From: an uncultured Lactobacillus sp.
Lineage (GTDB): Bacteria; Bacillota; Bacilli; Lactobacillales; Lactobacillaceae
Direction: 5' to 3'
Length of the DNA stretch: 62,960 nt
Assembly: GCF_944327175.1 (NCBI RefSeq)
Contig: NZ_CALVGT010000024.1
Span: 1-62,960, forward strand
Part shown: piece by piece, positions 37,972 to 47,249 of the stretch
How positions within the stretch are numbered: the first letter of the stretch is position 1
Layout: every line of letters begins with the position of its first letter
Translations under genes and position numbers: made by a program
Notes under the pieces: generated by a model
Databases searched by the model: none
Seen by the model: only the letters and a program-made list of their open reading frames with translations
Told to the model about the DNA's origin: nothing

Positions 37972-38027
37972 ATTATCAGCTAACATGCAAACGCTAACAA
38001 GAGTTGTTTTTATGTTACCGCTAACAG
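37972..38027 (-). promoter_or_regulatory. mapA promoter with cre/MalR-like operators
   Basis: On the minus strand TTGTTA (38000-37995) and GATAAT (37977-37972) are 17 bp apart. The site 37985-38000 (ATGCAAACGCTAACAA) fits the CcpA cre consensus at every fixed position and overlaps the -35. A second near-palindrome, 38012-38027 (ATGTTACCGCTAACAG), starts 27 bp upstream and resembles the sites before the two GH13_31 genes. Confidence 0.75.
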
Positions 38028-41471: not shown

Positions 41472-41528
41472 ATTTAACCAAATAACAGTTAGCGCTTACA
41501 AGCCTGACCTGTCTGTTATCGGTAACAA
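41472..41528 (-). promoter_or_regulatory. Promoter and two operators of the GH13_31-neopullulanase unit
   Basis: TTGTAA (41501-41496) and TTAAAT (41477-41472) on the minus strand are 18 bp apart. The site 41486-41501 (CAGTTAGCGCTTACAA, reverse TTGTAAGCGCTAACTG) matches cre at all fixed positions but the last base and covers the -35. A second palindrome, 41513-41528 (CTGTTATCGGTAACAA), lies just upstream. Confidence 0.65.
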
Positions 41529-41567: not shown

Positions 41568-42527
41568 CTATTTGGTTGATTCGGCCTCGCTCAAGGTCGG
41601 TTCGATAAAGACCTCCCCTTGCGGCGCGCCGTTTTGGGCAATTTTTCTTAAAATGAGTTCCGCCAGCTTCTCGCCGATCAGCCAGAGGTTCTGCTTGACG
41701 GTCGTGATCGTCGGCGATGACAGCCGGTCCAAAAGGACCCCGTCATAGCCGATCACGCCAAAGTCTTCCGGAATCTTGGCTTCCGCCTCCACCAGGGCCT
41801 GGATGACCCCCATGGCAATCCGGTCACTGCCGCAGACAAAGCAGGTGTTCTTGGGAAATTCGCCCAAGTGTTCCTGGATGAACTCGCGGGCCGCGGCTAA
41901 GCTGTTTTCCACCCGGAAGACGCTGGGAATCTTCTTGTTTTGCTGCATGGTGTTGACATAACCAGCTTCTCTGGAAAATTCAAAAGCCTCACGGACATCG
42001 ATACCGATAAAAACCACGCTCCGGTAGCCAGCCTTCAAGGCATACTTGGTCGCCATGGTCTCACCCAGCAAGTTGTTGGTGTCGACAAAGTCGTAGCCGC
42101 CCCGGTTCTCGCCAAACAGGACGAAAGGCTGCTTAAGCTCGTTCAATTGGGGGTAATCATCAGTCCTAGCTCCGGTGATCACGTAGCCGTCAGCTGCCCC
42201 CTGGTCTAGCTGGCTCCCCTTCAAGAGCAGCTGGAGGGAATAGTTCTGCTTCTTCAACTCTGTCGCCATGCCAAACAAGACATTGGTAAAGTAAGGGTCT
42301 GTATCGTCAACGTCTTCTAAAATCACGAACTTCACCACGCTGGTCTGGTTCTTGGCCAAGGCCCGGGCCGCGTTGTTGGGGTGGTAGTTCAATTTGTGCA
42401 TGGCGTCTTCAACGACCACCTGCAGTTCCGGAGCAACCAGTTCGGGGTGGTTGATCACTCTTGAAACGGTCATCTTCGACACATGGGCCTTGCGAGCCAC
42501 ATCTTCTAAAGTAGCGGTTCTCTTCAA
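41568..42527 (-). CDS. malR: LacI-family regulator, probable MalR
   Basis: A 319-residue repressor. The N-terminal helix-turn-helix is ATLEDVARKAHVSKMTVSRVIN with the hinge PNNAARALA, then a periplasmic-binding-protein-like ligand domain. It probably senses maltose or a maltodextrin and controls the operators at 37985-38027, 41486-41528 and 44391-44406. The start codon is TTG with GGGAGG 8 nt upstream, and no other start fits the helix-turn-helix. It is separated by a terminator from the GH13_31 operon downstream. A role as global CcpA is less likely given its position and length. Confidence 0.88.
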   Translation of the reverse strand: MKRTATLEDVARKAHVSKMTVSRVINHPELVAPELQVVVEDAMHKLNYHPNNAARALAKNQTSVVKFVILEDVDDTDPYFTNVLFGMATELKKQNYSLQLLLKGSQLDQGAADGYVITGARTDDYPQLNELKQPFVLFGENRGGYDFVDTNNLLGETMATKYALKAGYRSVVFIGIDVREAFEFSREAGYVNTMQQNKKIPSVFRVENSLAAAREFIQEHLGEFPKNTCFVCGSDRIAMGVIQALVEAEAKIPEDFGVIGYDGVLLDRLSSPTITTVKQNLWLIGEKLAELILRKIAQNGAPQGEVFIEPTLSEAESTK

Positions 42528-42676: not shown

Positions 42677-44299
42677 TTATTTTTCCACCCGGCAAAGAAA
42701 GGCCGCGTAAGGGGGTAAAAGAGCCTTAGACAGGTCTTCCGGGACAGGCCCGTTAGCCAGAATGACTTCCTTGACCTTATCTGGCAGGGAAACTTCTTGC
42801 TCCTCGCCAGTCAAGTTGCAGACTACCAGCCACTTGTCTTCCGCGTTTTCCCGGTGGTAGGCCATGACGGCATCTGCCGTGTCCAAGAGTTCAAAGGACC
42901 CATCGGTCAAAATCCGTTCCTGGTGGCGGAGGGCAATCAGCTTCTTATAGAAATAATAAATTGAATCTGGATCATTCAATGCATTTTTTACGTTTATTTC
43001 CTGGCAGTTGGAGTTAACCGCCAGCCATGGCCGGCCGCTGGTAAAGCCGGCGGAAGCTGAAGCATCCCACTGCATTGGGGTCCGGGCATTGTCCCGGCCC
43101 CGGGCATTGATGGCCTTGATCAAGTCCTCCTTCTTCCAGCCCTCTGCCAGCCGTTCCTGGTACATCCGCCGGGCTTCGATGTCTTCTACCTCGTCGATAG
43201 CCGAAACCGGACAGTTGGTCATCCCGATTTCCTCACCCTGGTAGATATAAGGGGTCCCCCGCAAACCGTGCAGGAGAAGGGCCAGCATCTTAGCGCTGCG
43301 CTCGCGGTACTGCTGGTCATTGCCAAAGCGGGACACGATCCGGGGCAGGTCGTGGTTGTTCCAAAAGAGGCTGTTCCAGCTGTGGTTAAAGTCCAGCTTT
43401 TGCCACTTGGCCAGGACATTCTTCAAGTCGCCGTAGTCAAGGGGCTTGGTGTCCCACTTTTCCTTGCCGGCCTGCTTGTCCAATTCCGTGAATTCAAACT
43501 GGAAGACCATGGACAGTTCTTTTCTGTCCGGGTCGCTATACAGGGGAGCGTTGTCTAAAGTTGCCCCCCAGGTTTCCCCGACTGTCAAAAAGTCCCGGTC
43601 GCCAAAAGTCTCCCGGTGCATCTCCTGCAGGTAGTCGTGCAGCTTGGGGCCGTTAGCGGTAATCTCTTCTTCCGGGACCTTGCCGATCAGTTCAATCACG
43701 TCCATCCGGAAGCCCCCAATCCCCTTGTCGATCCAGAAGTTCATCAAGTCATAGACCTTCTGCCTTAGGGCCGGGTTCTTCCAGTTCAAATCCGGCTGCT
43801 CTTTGGCAAAAAGGTGGAGGTAGTACTGGCCGACCTGGCCATCATATTCCCAGGCGCTGCCGGAAAAAGCTGACTTGAGTTCATTGGCCTTGTCCGCCCA
43901 GACATAGTAGTCGTGTTCCGAAGAGGATGGATTTTTCCGGGCCTCGATAAACCAAGGGTGCTGGTTGGAGGTGTGGTTGACCACCAGGTCCATCACGATC
44001 CGGATCCCCCGCTTCTTGGCCTCACTGATTAATTCTTCCATGTCCGCCATGGTCCCGTACTGGGGGTCGATGGCTTCGTAGTCAGCGATGTCATAGCCGT
44101 TGTCCACGCCTGGCGACTTGTAGACCGGGCAGAGCCAGATGGCGTCGATGCCCAAGTCTTGCAGGTAATCCAGCCGCTTGATGATCCCCCGCAGGTCGCC
44201 GACCCCGTCGCCGTTAGTGTCCTGGAAGGACTTGGGATAGATCTGGTAGATCACGGCCTGCTTCCACCATGGTTCTTGCTTTTGCTTTTCTGCTGTCAT
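42677..44299 (-). CDS. GH13_31 oligo-1,6-glucosidase/dextran glucosidase type
   Basis: A 540-residue intracellular glucosidase. Regions are DLVVNH (I), GGFRMDVIELIGKV (II, nucleophile Asp200), TVGETW (III, Glu241) and WNNHD (IV, Asp316). Val201 next to the nucleophile is the residue tied to alpha-1,6 specificity, so isomaltose, isomaltooligosaccharides or panose are likely substrates, complementing the Ala-type paralogue. It precedes the LacI-family gene by about 150 nt. TTTGAGGAAATAAA is upstream of the ATG. Its promoter carries an operator at 44391-44406, right next to the IS200/IS605 insertion. Confidence 0.92.
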   Translation of the reverse strand: MTAEKQKQEPWWKQAVIYQIYPKSFQDTNGDGVGDLRGIIKRLDYLQDLGIDAIWLCPVYKSPGVDNGYDIADYEAIDPQYGTMADMEELISEAKKRGIRIVMDLVVNHTSNQHPWFIEARKNPSSSEHDYYVWADKANELKSAFSGSAWEYDGQVGQYYLHLFAKEQPDLNWKNPALRQKVYDLMNFWIDKGIGGFRMDVIELIGKVPEEEITANGPKLHDYLQEMHRETFGDRDFLTVGETWGATLDNAPLYSDPDRKELSMVFQFEFTELDKQAGKEKWDTKPLDYGDLKNVLAKWQKLDFNHSWNSLFWNNHDLPRIVSRFGNDQQYRERSAKMLALLLHGLRGTPYIYQGEEIGMTNCPVSAIDEVEDIEARRMYQERLAEGWKKEDLIKAINARGRDNARTPMQWDASASAGFTSGRPWLAVNSNCQEINVKNALNDPDSIYYFYKKLIALRHQERILTDGSFELLDTADAVMAYHRENAEDKWLVVCNLTGEEQEVSLPDKVKEVILANGPVPEDLSKALLPPYAAFLCRVEK

Positions 44300-44361
44300 T
44301 TTATTTCCTCAAACTCTCATCTAAATTCAGCTGAAGCGCTGTCATTTTTTTCTACAAGTTT

Positions 44362-44406
44362 AGTATAGGGAAAACAGGTACGGATGCAAGCAGTTACCGC
44401 TAACCA
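44362..44406 (-). promoter_or_regulatory. Promoter and operator of the oligo-1,6-glucosidase gene
   Basis: On the minus strand TTGCAT (44389-44384) and TATACT (44367-44362) are 16 bp apart. The operator CAGTTACCGCTAACCA (44391-44406) sits just upstream of the -35 and shares GTTACCGCTAAC with the mapA site. The IS end begins one base further at 44408. Confidence 0.75.
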
Positions 44407-44407
44407 A

Positions 44408-44667
44408 TTGAACCTCCTACGACTAAAGTCGCAGGAATCTGGGGGCCACCCAACACATTACACGTAAGATCGACAACTCTTAGAAGTACTCAGAGTGTTT
44501 AGGTTAGTTTCACAACTGCCCAATGTCATCTCGTCTTCGTTTTGACTCGCTCAGAAGATTACGCAGATAACACCGTCTAGTGCTAAGGACGATTGTTCCG
44601 TTTCGCCCGGGCTGTTTTTAGTGCTTTAATCTTAGACTTCCGTCACCAGTGACGAAGGGCTAAGATT
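44408..44667 (-). ncRNA. Candidate omega RNA (TnpB guide RNA scaffold)
   Basis: The 3' end of tnpB and the downstream IS end on the minus strand form the region that encodes the TnpB guide RNA in this family. Visible structure includes AATCTTAG...CTAAGATT (44667-44660 with 44635-44628) with an inner GTCAC/GTGAC, and the terminal CCTGCGAC-GTCGTAGG hairpin ending GGTTCAA. The RNA would read on into the flank TTGGTTAGCGGTAACTG as its guide. This accounts for the 332-nt gap between the glucosidase and tnpB. Confidence 0.65.
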
Positions 44668-46044
44668 TTTTCCTTCTTCGGCCGTTTTCTTCAGCTTTGC
44701 GTGATGCTCTGGATGAATCCCCCAATCTAATATGTTTCTTGCTGCGTTTAAATCCCTGTCTACCGTCTTCTTGCAACTTGGACACTGCCATTCTTTCTGA
44801 CCAACTTTGAGATCTTTGTTGATGTATCCGCAGTCGTGGCATGCCTTGCTTGTCCAAAATGAATCCACTTTGACAAACCTTTTGTTCTGCTTCTTTACAA
44901 GCGACTCTAAAATAGTCATCAGCTCATATGGCTTGAGGACCGCCAGTCTGCGATTGATGCCTTTTCTTTGAGCAGAGCCTTTCCCACGCTTGCGCATCTC
45001 ATAGGCATCCAATTTCTCAACGACGATCGTGTCGCAGTCATCGACTACTTCGTGTACCAGATGGCGGTATTCGTTGGTAAGCATGTTCGAGCGCTTTGCA
45101 TTGATCTTCTGCTGTCTGCGGTCAAGCTTGCGATACAGCTTGCTTTGCCCGTGGGCATTTCCTTCCAGATCACGCGCTGACTTAATTGCATTGATCTTCT
45201 GCTCATATTCGTCAGCTCGCTTGATTGCGGCGTCTGATACCTTGATCCGCTTGCCGTCTGATGAGCAAAAAGCCTCATTGCCAGCCATGTTCCAGTCAAA
45301 GCCTTGAATAGTTTTTGACTTCTGCTTCTTGCGGGGCAGAGAAAAGGTCAGCTGCAGTCTGTAAGAACCATCTGGAAGCTTCTTTATCTTTGTCAAAGCA
45401 ATGTCCTTCAAGTTTAATTCGGACAAGTCTTCAATGACTTCGACAGTACCAAAGTCGGCTACTGTTAAGAAGGTGTGGTTGTCTGTATGCTTGTCCTCAA
45501 TTCTGATGCCTCCTTTAGAATCTTCTGGAAGCTTTTGTGAGGTGATGGTTCTAAAGCTTGCGCTGTTTCTCAAAAAGTTGATCGATCCCTTGCGGTACCA
45601 AGATTTGTGGAGCTGGTTCTTGTGCTTGCCGTACTTATCTTTAGTTACGTTCATCTTGAAGTTATAGCGAGCCTTCTCGTCCATGCTCTTGTCTGCTTTC
45701 ACCAAGCGCTTGCGATACTGTGAGAAGTTGGTGTAGACGGTCTTGAGAAACTCATCGGCTGAATGAGACGACAAAAACAGCACTGACTTCTTCCAACGTG
45801 CCAAGCCGTACTTGTCCTTGATAAAGCCAGTTTTAATTTTGTTAAGTACGTACTGAATGGGCTTTTGGCTAAATGGCATAGGGCGTCCGATATGCTTAAC
45901 GCCATAAGTCTTAAAGAGATACTTTAAAGCGTACTGAAACAAAGCATTCTGAGTTTTCAACGCTTTCTCATGCTGGATTTTTTGCTTGTCAGTCAGCAAC
46001 ACATGGTATTGTCTGGTAAATCCATACTTTTCTTCATTAGACAC
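44632..46044 (-). CDS. tnpB: TnpB RNA-guided nuclease (IS200/IS605)
   Basis: A 470-residue TnpB (OrfB, Cas12 ancestor). The RuvC-like acidic triad is complete: Asp250 (QGFDWNMAGN), Glu343 (VVEKLDAYEM) and Asp431 (DRDLNAARNIL). The zinc ribbon is CHDC (402-405) and CPSC (421-424). TnpB proteins cut DNA that matches the guide of the omega RNA next to a target motif, helping the element persist. The protein is longer than the roughly 400 residues of ISDra2 TnpB, mainly in the N-terminal half. The catalytic set suggests an active nuclease. It ends inside the omega RNA scaffold. Confidence 0.93.
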   Translation of the reverse strand: MSNEEKYGFTRQYHVLLTDKQKIQHEKALKTQNALFQYALKYLFKTYGVKHIGRPMPFSQKPIQYVLNKIKTGFIKDKYGLARWKKSVLFLSSHSADEFLKTVYTNFSQYRKRLVKADKSMDEKARYNFKMNVTKDKYGKHKNQLHKSWYRKGSINFLRNSASFRTITSQKLPEDSKGGIRIEDKHTDNHTFLTVADFGTVEVIEDLSELNLKDIALTKIKKLPDGSYRLQLTFSLPRKKQKSKTIQGFDWNMAGNEAFCSSDGKRIKVSDAAIKRADEYEQKINAIKSARDLEGNAHGQSKLYRKLDRRQQKINAKRSNMLTNEYRHLVHEVVDDCDTIVVEKLDAYEMRKRGKGSAQRKGINRRLAVLKPYELMTILESLVKKQNKRFVKVDSFWTSKACHDCGYINKDLKVGQKEWQCPSCKKTVDRDLNAARNILDWGIHPEHHAKLKKTAEEGKNLSPSSLVTEV

Positions 46045-46110
46045 AGATGCACACCTTCTTTCGTCCTACTTTATGCTATAATTATACCACAAAGAAAGGT
46101 GGCATACACT

Positions 46111-46572
46111 ATGATCGTCCATGAAAGAGGCTGCGTTTATAACTTCAATTTCCATCTAGTTTTCGTGACCAAGTACCGGAAAGAAGTCTTTGATAGCCCA
46201 GAAAAGGTTGAAGAAATGAAAGGGCTGCTCCAAAAAAGAGCGGATATGTCGGACATCCAGATCCAGGAAATGGAAGTAATGCCCGATCACGTTCACATGC
46301 TTATTTCATTTTCGCCAAAACAGAGGCCCGTAGACGTAGTTAAAGGGCTGAAAGGCTGGACAGCCCGGAAATGGTTCGAGCTGCACCCGGAAACTAAGCA
46401 GATGCTGTGGGGCGGCCACCTCTGGTCACCAAGCTATTTTATGAGCACCTTAGGTGACATGAGCAAAGAAGTCGTTAAAAATTACATTGCATCTCAGTAC
46501 ACGGCAGCCATGAAAAAACAGCAGAATGGCAAGTATGGCGAGTTGGAAAGAAAGAGAAGAAAGAGAAACTAA
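46111..46572 (+). CDS. tnpA: IS200/IS605 Y1 transposase TnpA
   Basis: A 153-residue HUH single-strand transposase. The HUH motif is HVH (residues 60-62) in MPDHVHMLISF, and the catalytic Tyr125 is in VVKNYIASQY with the helper Gln129. It cuts and joins the single-stranded ends at subterminal hairpins. The ATG encoding MIVHERGCVYN is chosen because AAAGGTGG lies 8 nt upstream; a longer frame reaches into the tnpB start region and is rejected. All catalytic residues are present, so the element may be mobile on its own. A strong terminator follows. Confidence 0.93.
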   Translation: MIVHERGCVYNFNFHLVFVTKYRKEVFDSPEKVEEMKGLLQKRADMSDIQIQEMEVMPDHVHMLISFSPKQRPVDVVKGLKGWTARKWFELHPETKQMLWGGHLWSPSYFMSTLGDMSKEVVKNYIASQYTAAMKKQQNGKYGELERKRRKRN

Positions 46573-46597
46573 AAAACGCCCCAATGGGGCGTTTTTG
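46571..46597 (+). terminator. Terminator of tnpA
   Basis: AAACGCCCC and GGGGCGTTT form a 9-bp stem with a 3-nt loop and a T run. Confidence 0.9.
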
Positions 46598-46604
46598 CGT
46601 GCTT

Positions 46605-46628
46605 AACTCATGTCTAAAGACACGAGTT
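46605..46628. repeat. Subterminal hairpin of the IS200/IS605 left end
   Basis: AACTCATGTC and GACACGAGTT pair with one mismatch around a TAAA loop; this is the expected TnpA recognition hairpin near the TTGAT border. Confidence 0.7.
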
Positions 46629-46645
46629 TGAGCACACCTTTTAAT

Positions 46646-46672
46646 CAAAAAAGAGCTGCCAGGGCAGCTCTC
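46646..46672 (-). terminator. Terminator after the esterase pseudogene
   Basis: GAGCTGCC-CT-GGCAGCTC followed by T6G on the minus strand. The IS begins directly at the end of the T run. Confidence 0.9.
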
Positions 46673-46696
46673 GTAAATAATAAATTCATTTTTCGT

Positions 46697-47249
46697 CTAT
46701 TGGTAAATCTGGGTCAGCTTGTCCTTGTTTTCATCATAGTTGATCCCGGAGAAAAGATGTTCCAGCCACTCCAGGCTCAAATTGAACCAGCGGGCCGTAT
46801 GGGGGTTGCCCTGCCAGAAGATGTCTTCCGTGGACAATTCCGGGGTGGCCAAAGAGTAGCCGTGGTAGCCGATGTCAAACATGTGGGCCTCGCACTTGAC
46901 TTTGTTTTTGAACAAGGCTTCTTCATAGGCCATGGCATTGGTTGGCAGGCAGATCGCGTCGTTCCAGGACTGGAAGATGAAGGTCGGCGGCGTCTTAGGA
47001 GTTACCCCCAGGGCCGTGTCGACCAGCTTTCGGTTAGGCGGCAAGGCCCCGGCTGACATAGGCCAGGGCCACCGGCTCCCCTTCCTTGACGGAGAGATGG
47101 GTGAAGGAGCCGCCCGGCACCACGATGGCTAGGGAGCGGAGCTGGTTTAAGGGGGCATGGTTACTTTTAACCGTATAGGTCTGCAGCTGGTAGGTCCGGC
47201 CGTTAAAGTTCTTGATCTCTAGTTTTTTCGTTTCTATTTTTTGCCTCAC
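46697..47249 (-). pseudogene. Alpha/beta-hydrolase (esterase) pseudogene with internal deletion
   Basis: Two out-of-frame pieces remain. 47249-47034 encodes an N-terminus (MRQKIETKKLEIKNF onward, with VVPGGSFTHLSVKEGEPVALAYVSRG, the oxyanion-side strand of esterase-type hydrolases). 47059-46697 encodes the C-terminal end (TPPTFIFQSWNDAICLP with the catalytic Asp region, FDIGYHGYSLA with the catalytic His). The middle that should hold the GxSxG nucleophile is missing and the frames do not join, so the protein would be inactive. Intact relatives are around 270-300 residues. The 5' end overlaps the last 47 nt of the YibE/F-type gene upstream. Confidence 0.82.

Follow-up and report, generated by a model that had tools for sequence, protein, structure and literature searches.

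An ISDra2-like IS200/IS605 element of a Lactobacillus with an operator-like site in its predicted TnpB guide

The stretch of DNA analyzed here (hereafter the window) is the full 62,960 nt of contig NZ_CALVGT010000024.1 from an uncultured Lactobacillus sp., and it carries an IS200/IS605-type element with a transposase gene, tnpA, and a tnpB gene (Table 1). Judging from its sequence and that of its relatives, this is very probably an ordinary, apparently intact ISDra2-type "peel and paste" element, the TnpB of which would take as its guide the operator-like site adjoining the element and as its target the element's own empty site. The element belongs to a known kind, and a guide copied from the flank is a general property of such elements; the operator would lie in the guide because of where this element landed. 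A first-pass annotation of the window had proposed an ISDra2-like element aimed at its own empty site, which the comparisons below appear to support well. The borders, the empty site, the TTGAT rule, the covariation of the RNA and the retained motifs are established at the level of sequence comparison.

Results

Borders and empty site

On the minus strand, GTCGTAGGAGGTTCAA is directly joined to TTGGTTAGCGGTAACTG (44407-44391), and the opposite end abuts TTGAT. The borders were tested in three ways, namely with an empty site, with the break in homology at the right end, and with a comparison of left ends. The nearest orthologous locus, that of Lactobacillus delbrueckii DSM 20074 (L011), has flanks that are 94.4-94.6% identical in DNA sequence and is without the element at the same site, reading TTGAT/TTGGTTAGCGGTAACTGC (the slash marks the joint); the first-pass annotation had foretold this sequence for a strain lacking the insertion, and its borders match. 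Both flanks are contiguous in DSM 20074 (TTTTTTGAT/TTGGTTAGCGG; over a longer stretch, CTCTTTTTTGATTTGGTTAGCGGTAACTGC), and the BLAST pieces meet at one shared base, with window positions 46643 and 44407 both falling on L011 position 5894. The 2236 bp were therefore inserted without target duplication. Across the joint, 5 of 70 bases differ between the window and DSM 20074, none of them between the T-run and TTGGTTAGCGGTAACTGCTTGCATCCG. As the element is also absent at that site in L. nasalidis (L012) and L. equicursoris (L013), the insertion is, by parsimony, the derived state.

The right border is also marked by the end of homology to sister copies at TTCAA, which together with the sequence confirms the earlier claim that the tnpB-side end runs into the operator-like site. 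At the left border, Ligilactobacillus salivarius relatives read TTGAT/TAGAAAA where the window's left end, which starts TAAAAGG on the minus strand, reads TTGAT/TAAAAGG, and thus the single ambiguous T belongs to the element. The other end had been said to abut TTGAT in the T-run of the esterase terminator, and it does so (46648-46644, with the stem at 46672-46651); terminator-like sites in the scanned region numbered 3 versus 2.6 expected, so that the class as a whole is not above chance. The element thus has the esterase-gene terminator on one side and the operator-like site of an oligo-1,6-glucosidase gene on the other, and the interval first assigned to it (44391-46648) takes in, besides the element, 17 bp of flanking DNA and the TTGAT (5 bp).

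Sister copies and relatives

The right ends of all 21 copies compared (this one and 20 relatives) stop at GTTCAA, with 18 distinct flanks beyond. The L. salivarius sample consisted of 16 stretches, one each from 16 of the 19 records (24 places) that matched a right-end query; the shared end is therefore partly selected for in these, but not the variation in their flanks. GTTCAA forms the end of all 16, which have 13 distinct right flanks between them. Left ends were found in 11 of the 16, and 10 of these 11 are preceded by TTGAT, in 9 distinct TTGAT flanks; the left-end pattern was not found in the stretches L140, L141, L151, L152 and L153, the first two of which end at the end of their record. 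Two of the plasmid copies, L145 and L154, have a right flank in common and left flanks that differ, both ending in TTGAT.

A sister copy in the same genome, on contig C10 (L008), encodes a TnpB 88% identical to that of the window, and another in Lactobacillus genome G001 (L091) encodes one that is 89% identical. Both have the same right end and unrelated sequence at the position of the window's left end, and these two copies may be immobile. The same right end follows a tnpB truncated at its 5' end on a plasmid of L. delbrueckii subsp. indicus JCM 15610, and more distant relatives, with TnpB 53% identical in the alignment, are found in genome G288 and on L. salivarius plasmids. Counting the source genome, this TnpB was found in 2 of 75 Lactobacillus genomes at E<=1e-60 and in 6 of 397 drawn family genomes at E<=1e-80. 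No stretch in IMG/VR fit the patterns for the window TnpB, and a phage search gave a single 92-bp match at 75%, annotated as a transposase.

The L. salivarius TnpBs have no cysteines in their last 120 residues in any of the 14 copies translated from the 16 stretches (L128, L140, L142-L151, L153 and L154; 9 distinct proteins). By their sequence, these proteins have lost the TNB-domain zinc finger, while the copies retain the RuvC motifs and the omega RNA. As near-identical copies are present at many sites, the L. salivarius copies appear to be still mobile.

Transposase and nuclease motifs

The RuvC motifs of the window TnpB look intact. D431 corresponds to D361 of ISDra2 TnpB (DRD-NAA motif versus ISDra2 residues 359-365), E343 is aligned to Glu in 2 of the 3 printed PDB matches that cover this position (8iaz and 23vu), and the RuvC D/E/D columns are conserved in all 6 aligned TnpBs. 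The PDB relatives, found by sequence and over the C-terminal half, include TnpB-like L79, ISDra2 TnpB, Cas12f and Cas12m, and the match to Pfam OrfB_IS605 (5e-7, 30.4 bits) falls marginally below the cut-off of 30.5. TnpA, encoded divergently from TnpB, has the motif residues H60-V-H62, Y125 and Q129, which we take to be its catalytic residues. The earlier claim that both proteins keep their catalytic residues appears to be borne out, for TnpB with D431 and E343 placed by alignment and D250 by motif only.

A conserved structured RNA at the right end

The right end comprises approximately 220 bp of non-coding sequence 3' of tnpB, with the terminal sequence GGAGGTTCAA. Between the end of tnpB and the right end, 9 sequences of both clades could be aligned (alignment A2), with conserved blocks including GAAACGGAAC, TGCGTA and TGAGCGAGTCAAAA. 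Of the pairs in the RNAalifold structure (Table 1), 21 have changes on both sides, and 98.0% of cells are paired when counted over the 8 distinct rows of the alignment. None of 500 shuffles attained the observed covariation score, share of cells paired, or numbers of pairs and of cells with changes on both sides, and when partners were slid, pairing fell to 31-41%. Near the border, GAAC (44598-44595) pairs with GTTC (44413-44410), i.e. scaffold positions -6G to -3C, and these 4 pairs are invariant. They occupy the position of the ISDra2 pseudoknot, formed by pairing of -5U to -3C with -103A to -105G (PMC10097598). Comparison therefore supports a right end that encodes a conserved structured RNA with a pseudoknot, presumably the omega RNA. 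A search of positions 44000-47200 against Rfam found no family at its gathering score; 5 matches below their families' gathering scores were rejected, the families also being implausible.

The predicted guide and its targets

Given the position of the right-end border and an ISDra2-like omega RNA, the predicted guide (44407-44392) would cover the operator-like site; the guide length adopted, 16 nt, is that of ISDra2 (PMC8612924). TTGAT by itself has 133 occurrences on the window's minus strand, or approximately 1 position in 470. Followed exactly by the first 11 guide nt, it was found in 1 of 75 Lactobacillus genomes, and this match (G011 C123) is the orthologous DSM 20074 empty site; 7 more of the 75 have TTGAT and the 11 guide nt at one mismatch. 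The exact combination was not found in the strain's own assembly (66 contigs, 96.05% complete). A target search of the same genome at <=3 mismatches gave 23 matches versus 12 for a reversed control, and the nearest match with an exact TTGAT, TTGATTTGGTTAACCG (C4:24160), has 2 mismatches in the 11 guide nt. Within the window, none of the 36 sites at <=5 mismatches from the 16-nt guide has TTGAT. The second exact copy of the operator-like palindrome (38014-38025) had been expected to lack the motif, and it has TAGAA at the guide offset, with 4 mismatches in 16. The filled site has TTCAA, not TTGAT, at this offset. In IMG/VR, 17 contigs match TTGATTTGGTTAGCGG; given the size of that collection, a 16-mer is expected there by chance.

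The operator-like site and neighboring genes

Counted on both strands, as its palindromic sites were, GTTAGCGGTAAC has 13 matches, in 9 places, at <=2 mismatches in the window, versus 2.6 matches expected (the maximum of 100 shuffles was 8). Conservation of the palindrome upstream of the glucosidase gene was assessed in 10 loci of the 80 fetched. In L. delbrueckii, L. nasalidis, L. equicursoris and L. gigeriorum it is mismatched at 0-1 positions, and in L. kalixensis at 2, so that 5 of the 10 loci have it at <=2 mismatches; the remaining 5 have 3-4 mismatches, which does not improve on the reversed control (best 3-5). A search of 21 genomes (DSM 20074 not included) for the promoter stretch gave 2 short non-own matches and was uninformative.

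The first-pass annotation had called this site a MalR operator. A conserved palindrome with a LacI-family gene nearby stands, and this gene is a candidate owner of the site; GTTAGCGGTAAC differs from the MalR operator sequences in the table of PMC2329647, and the assignment to MalR is unproven. Five maltose/maltodextrin regulons have been described in lactic acid bacteria (PMC3616900), and the literature on maltose regulators, in the excerpts consulted, does not settle which LacI-family protein binds GTTAGCGGTAAC. Two more operator-like palindromes (GTTAGCGCTTAC and GTTATCGGTAAC) lie at 41488-41526, between the LacI-family gene and the next alpha-glucosidase-like gene. On the other side of the element, approximately 326 bp are missing from the esterase-like gene (46697-47200) relative to DSM 20074, at 47046-47051 and with a few bases shared at the joint, and the gene looks broken.

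Table 1. Coordinates of the element, its parts and neighboring features in the window
Feature	Position	Strand	Description	Basis
IS200/IS605-type element	44408-46643	minus	2236 bp, left end 46643 to right end 44408	DSM 20074 empty site; homology break versus sister copies
TTGAT target motif 5' of left end	46644-46648	minus	In T-run 3' of esterase gene	Sequence
Left end with subterminal hairpin	46580-46643	minus		46580-46660 fold -15.4 kcal/mol, z -3.36
tnpA, Y1 transposase	46111-46572	plus	153 amino acids	Pfam Y1_Tnp 5.4e-38, profile 1-121 of 121
tnpB	44632-46044	minus	470 amino acids, GTG start; zinc-finger cysteines present; RuvC D250, E343, D431	Pfam Cas12f1-like_TNB 2.3e-18
Inferred omega RNA scaffold	44408-44600	minus	tnpB end to right end	Alignment A2, 9 sequences; RNAalifold 44 pairs
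Right-end hairpin	44415-44436	minus	TCCTGCGAC-TTTA-GTCGTAGGA	z -3.42 folded as DNA; covaries in alignment A2
Predicted 16-nt guide, TTGGTTAGCGGTAACT	44392-44407	minus	Host flank beyond right end; contains GTTAGCGGTAAC	Right-end border position
Operator-like palindrome GTTAGCGGTAAC	44393-44404	minus	Upstream of glucosidase gene	Exact match
Terminator-like stem	46672-46651		TTGAT in its T-run	Terminator scan
Oligo-1,6-glucosidase-type alpha-amylase family gene	42677-44299	minus	Same direction as tnpB	Pfam Alpha-amylase 1e-164
LacI-family regulator gene	41568-42527	minus	Candidate owner of operator	Pfam LacI 8.5e-18, Peripla_BP_3 2.8e-22
Second exact GTTAGCGGTAAC	38014-38025	minus	TAGAA at guide offset, 4 mismatches in 16	

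Discussion

A TnpB predicted to cut its own empty site

ISDra2 TnpB uses a right-end RNA that includes approximately 16 nt of flanking sequence, and it cuts DNA adjacent to TTGAT; Karvelis et al. proposed as its target the donor joint that excision leaves behind (PMC8612924). Nety et al. reported that TnpB makes its RNA from its own mRNA (PMC10278001), and Mears et al. described gene drive of such elements in plasmids (PMC11870625). The window element inserted 3' of a TTGAT three bases upstream of the operator-like site. By the same scheme, TnpA would move it as a single strand, and TnpB would produce an omega RNA by processing its own transcript, and the last 16 nt or so of this RNA would be adjoining host DNA, here the operator; both the transcription and the guide length are predictions. 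TnpB and this RNA should then cut the empty site TTGAT/TTGGTTAGCGGTAAC on the sister chromosome after excision, or on incoming DNA, and repair of the cut would restore the element. The filled site would escape cutting, as the guide sequence there is preceded by TTCAA instead of TTGAT. Conservation of the operator may keep the empty site a long-lived target. The presence of the operator in the guide is most likely incidental, since TnpB retains its nuclease motifs, an operator next to TTGAT was not found in this strain, and relatives carry their own flanks. Among the papers listed in the literature searches, none concerns a guide of an L. delbrueckii TnpB, which does not prove that no such report exists.

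We would like to note several points that weigh against this reading. The best PDB match of TnpB, L79, has Gly at the position of E343, and the printed PDB matches begin C-terminal of D250, which was assigned from the GFDWN family motif alone. No tnpB promoter is among the promoter-like sites of the region scan. With respect to the RNA, further pair types number 31 versus a shuffle mean of 39.0, with 500 of 500 shuffles at least as high; the structure was derived from the very alignment used for the covariation test, and most pair changes separate the two clades (4 Lactobacillus rows versus 5 others), and thus the independent events are fewer than the counts. One L. salivarius left flank reads TTTAT. 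Lastly, the C10 copy is the only sister copy in the genome, and as it is 88% identical and without the window's left end, it does not point to recent movement in this strain.

Alternative explanations

Another possibility, which we regard as unlikely as the main consequence of the insertion, is an effect in cis, with the glucosidase promoter cut off from its old upstream sequence and maybe reached by read-through from tnpB. The two genes have the same orientation, the terminator scan found no terminator-like site on the minus strand between them, and the insertion left intact both the operator and a promoter recognized by eye (TTGCAT-16-TATACT). However, the scan yielded 3 promoter-like sites versus 3.0 expected, with neither the by-eye promoter nor one for tnpB among them, and the upstream terminator already insulated the glucosidase promoter. 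Such an effect is also compatible with a TnpB aimed at its own empty site and does not exclude it.

It is very improbable that a LacI-family protein bound to the operator blocks RNA polymerase leaving tnpB, so that the sugar state sets the amount of full-length guide RNA. The operator begins at the fourth nt past the right end, and the shared direction of tnpB and the glucosidase gene, with no minus-strand terminator-like site between them in the scan, would favor such a roadblock; against this, such an arrangement was found in just one genome, ISDra2 TnpB uses only approximately 12 guide nt (PMC10278001), and leaky read-through might suffice. Less probable again is a wider coupling of element retention to the sugar state through the operator-as-guide, in which the LacI-family protein would restrict full-length guide RNA and also protect the empty-site DNA from TnpB, with purifying selection on the operator preserving a cleavable empty site in relatives. 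If operator occupancy did affect guide production or cleavage, a host regulator would gate an RNA-guided transposon nuclease.

Least probable of all is the suggestion of the first-pass annotation that TnpB touches maltose-gene regulation, with TnpB and its guide binding operator copies without cutting, as an incipient TldR-like repressor: a complete operator-like site does lie inside the guide and RNA-guided repressors are known to have arisen from TnpB homologues (PMC13418256), but the suggestion is not supported, as the RuvC motifs, tnpA and both ends are retained, no exact TTGAT-plus-guide was found in the 96.05% complete assembly (closest with exact TTGAT, 2 mismatches in 11), 0 of the 36 near-guide sites in the window have TTGAT, and the flanks of the other copies are unrelated to the operator.

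The element is a clean natural case, in which the empty site, borders, target motif and covarying omega RNA are concordant for a lactobacillus TnpB, and it supplies a defined native target and RNA for tests of a TTGAT TnpB of this group.

Comparison with known systems

TldR proteins, which are related to TnpB, have a dead nuclease and act as repressors of host genes (PMC13418256). The window element resembles these systems in having an RNA guide that would match a promoter region, and differs in that its RuvC motifs are kept, the element is still transposon-like, and no TTGAT-adjacent target was found in the assembly.

The element and ISDra2 of Deinococcus radiodurans have several features in common. 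Both have TTGAT as target and adjacent motif, a Y1 TnpA, end hairpins, no target duplication, RuvC motifs, a right-end flank in the guide position, and a pseudoknot between the 3' end of the scaffold and a GAA upstream of it. In contrast, the pseudoknot partner lies approximately 190 nt upstream in the window versus approximately 105 in ISDra2, i.e. the scaffold is longer, and the window TnpB has 470 amino acids versus 408, with phmmer aligning the C-terminal part only. The divergent arrangement of tnpA and tnpB also differs from the gene order of ISDra2.

This divergent order is shared with the elements on L. salivarius plasmids, the TnpB of which is annotated as an RNA-guided endonuclease and is 53% identical to that of the window. 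These elements differ in that their TnpB is without the zinc-finger cysteines and in being present as many near-identical copies at different sites; the omega RNA core, the ends and TTGAT are the same as in the window element.

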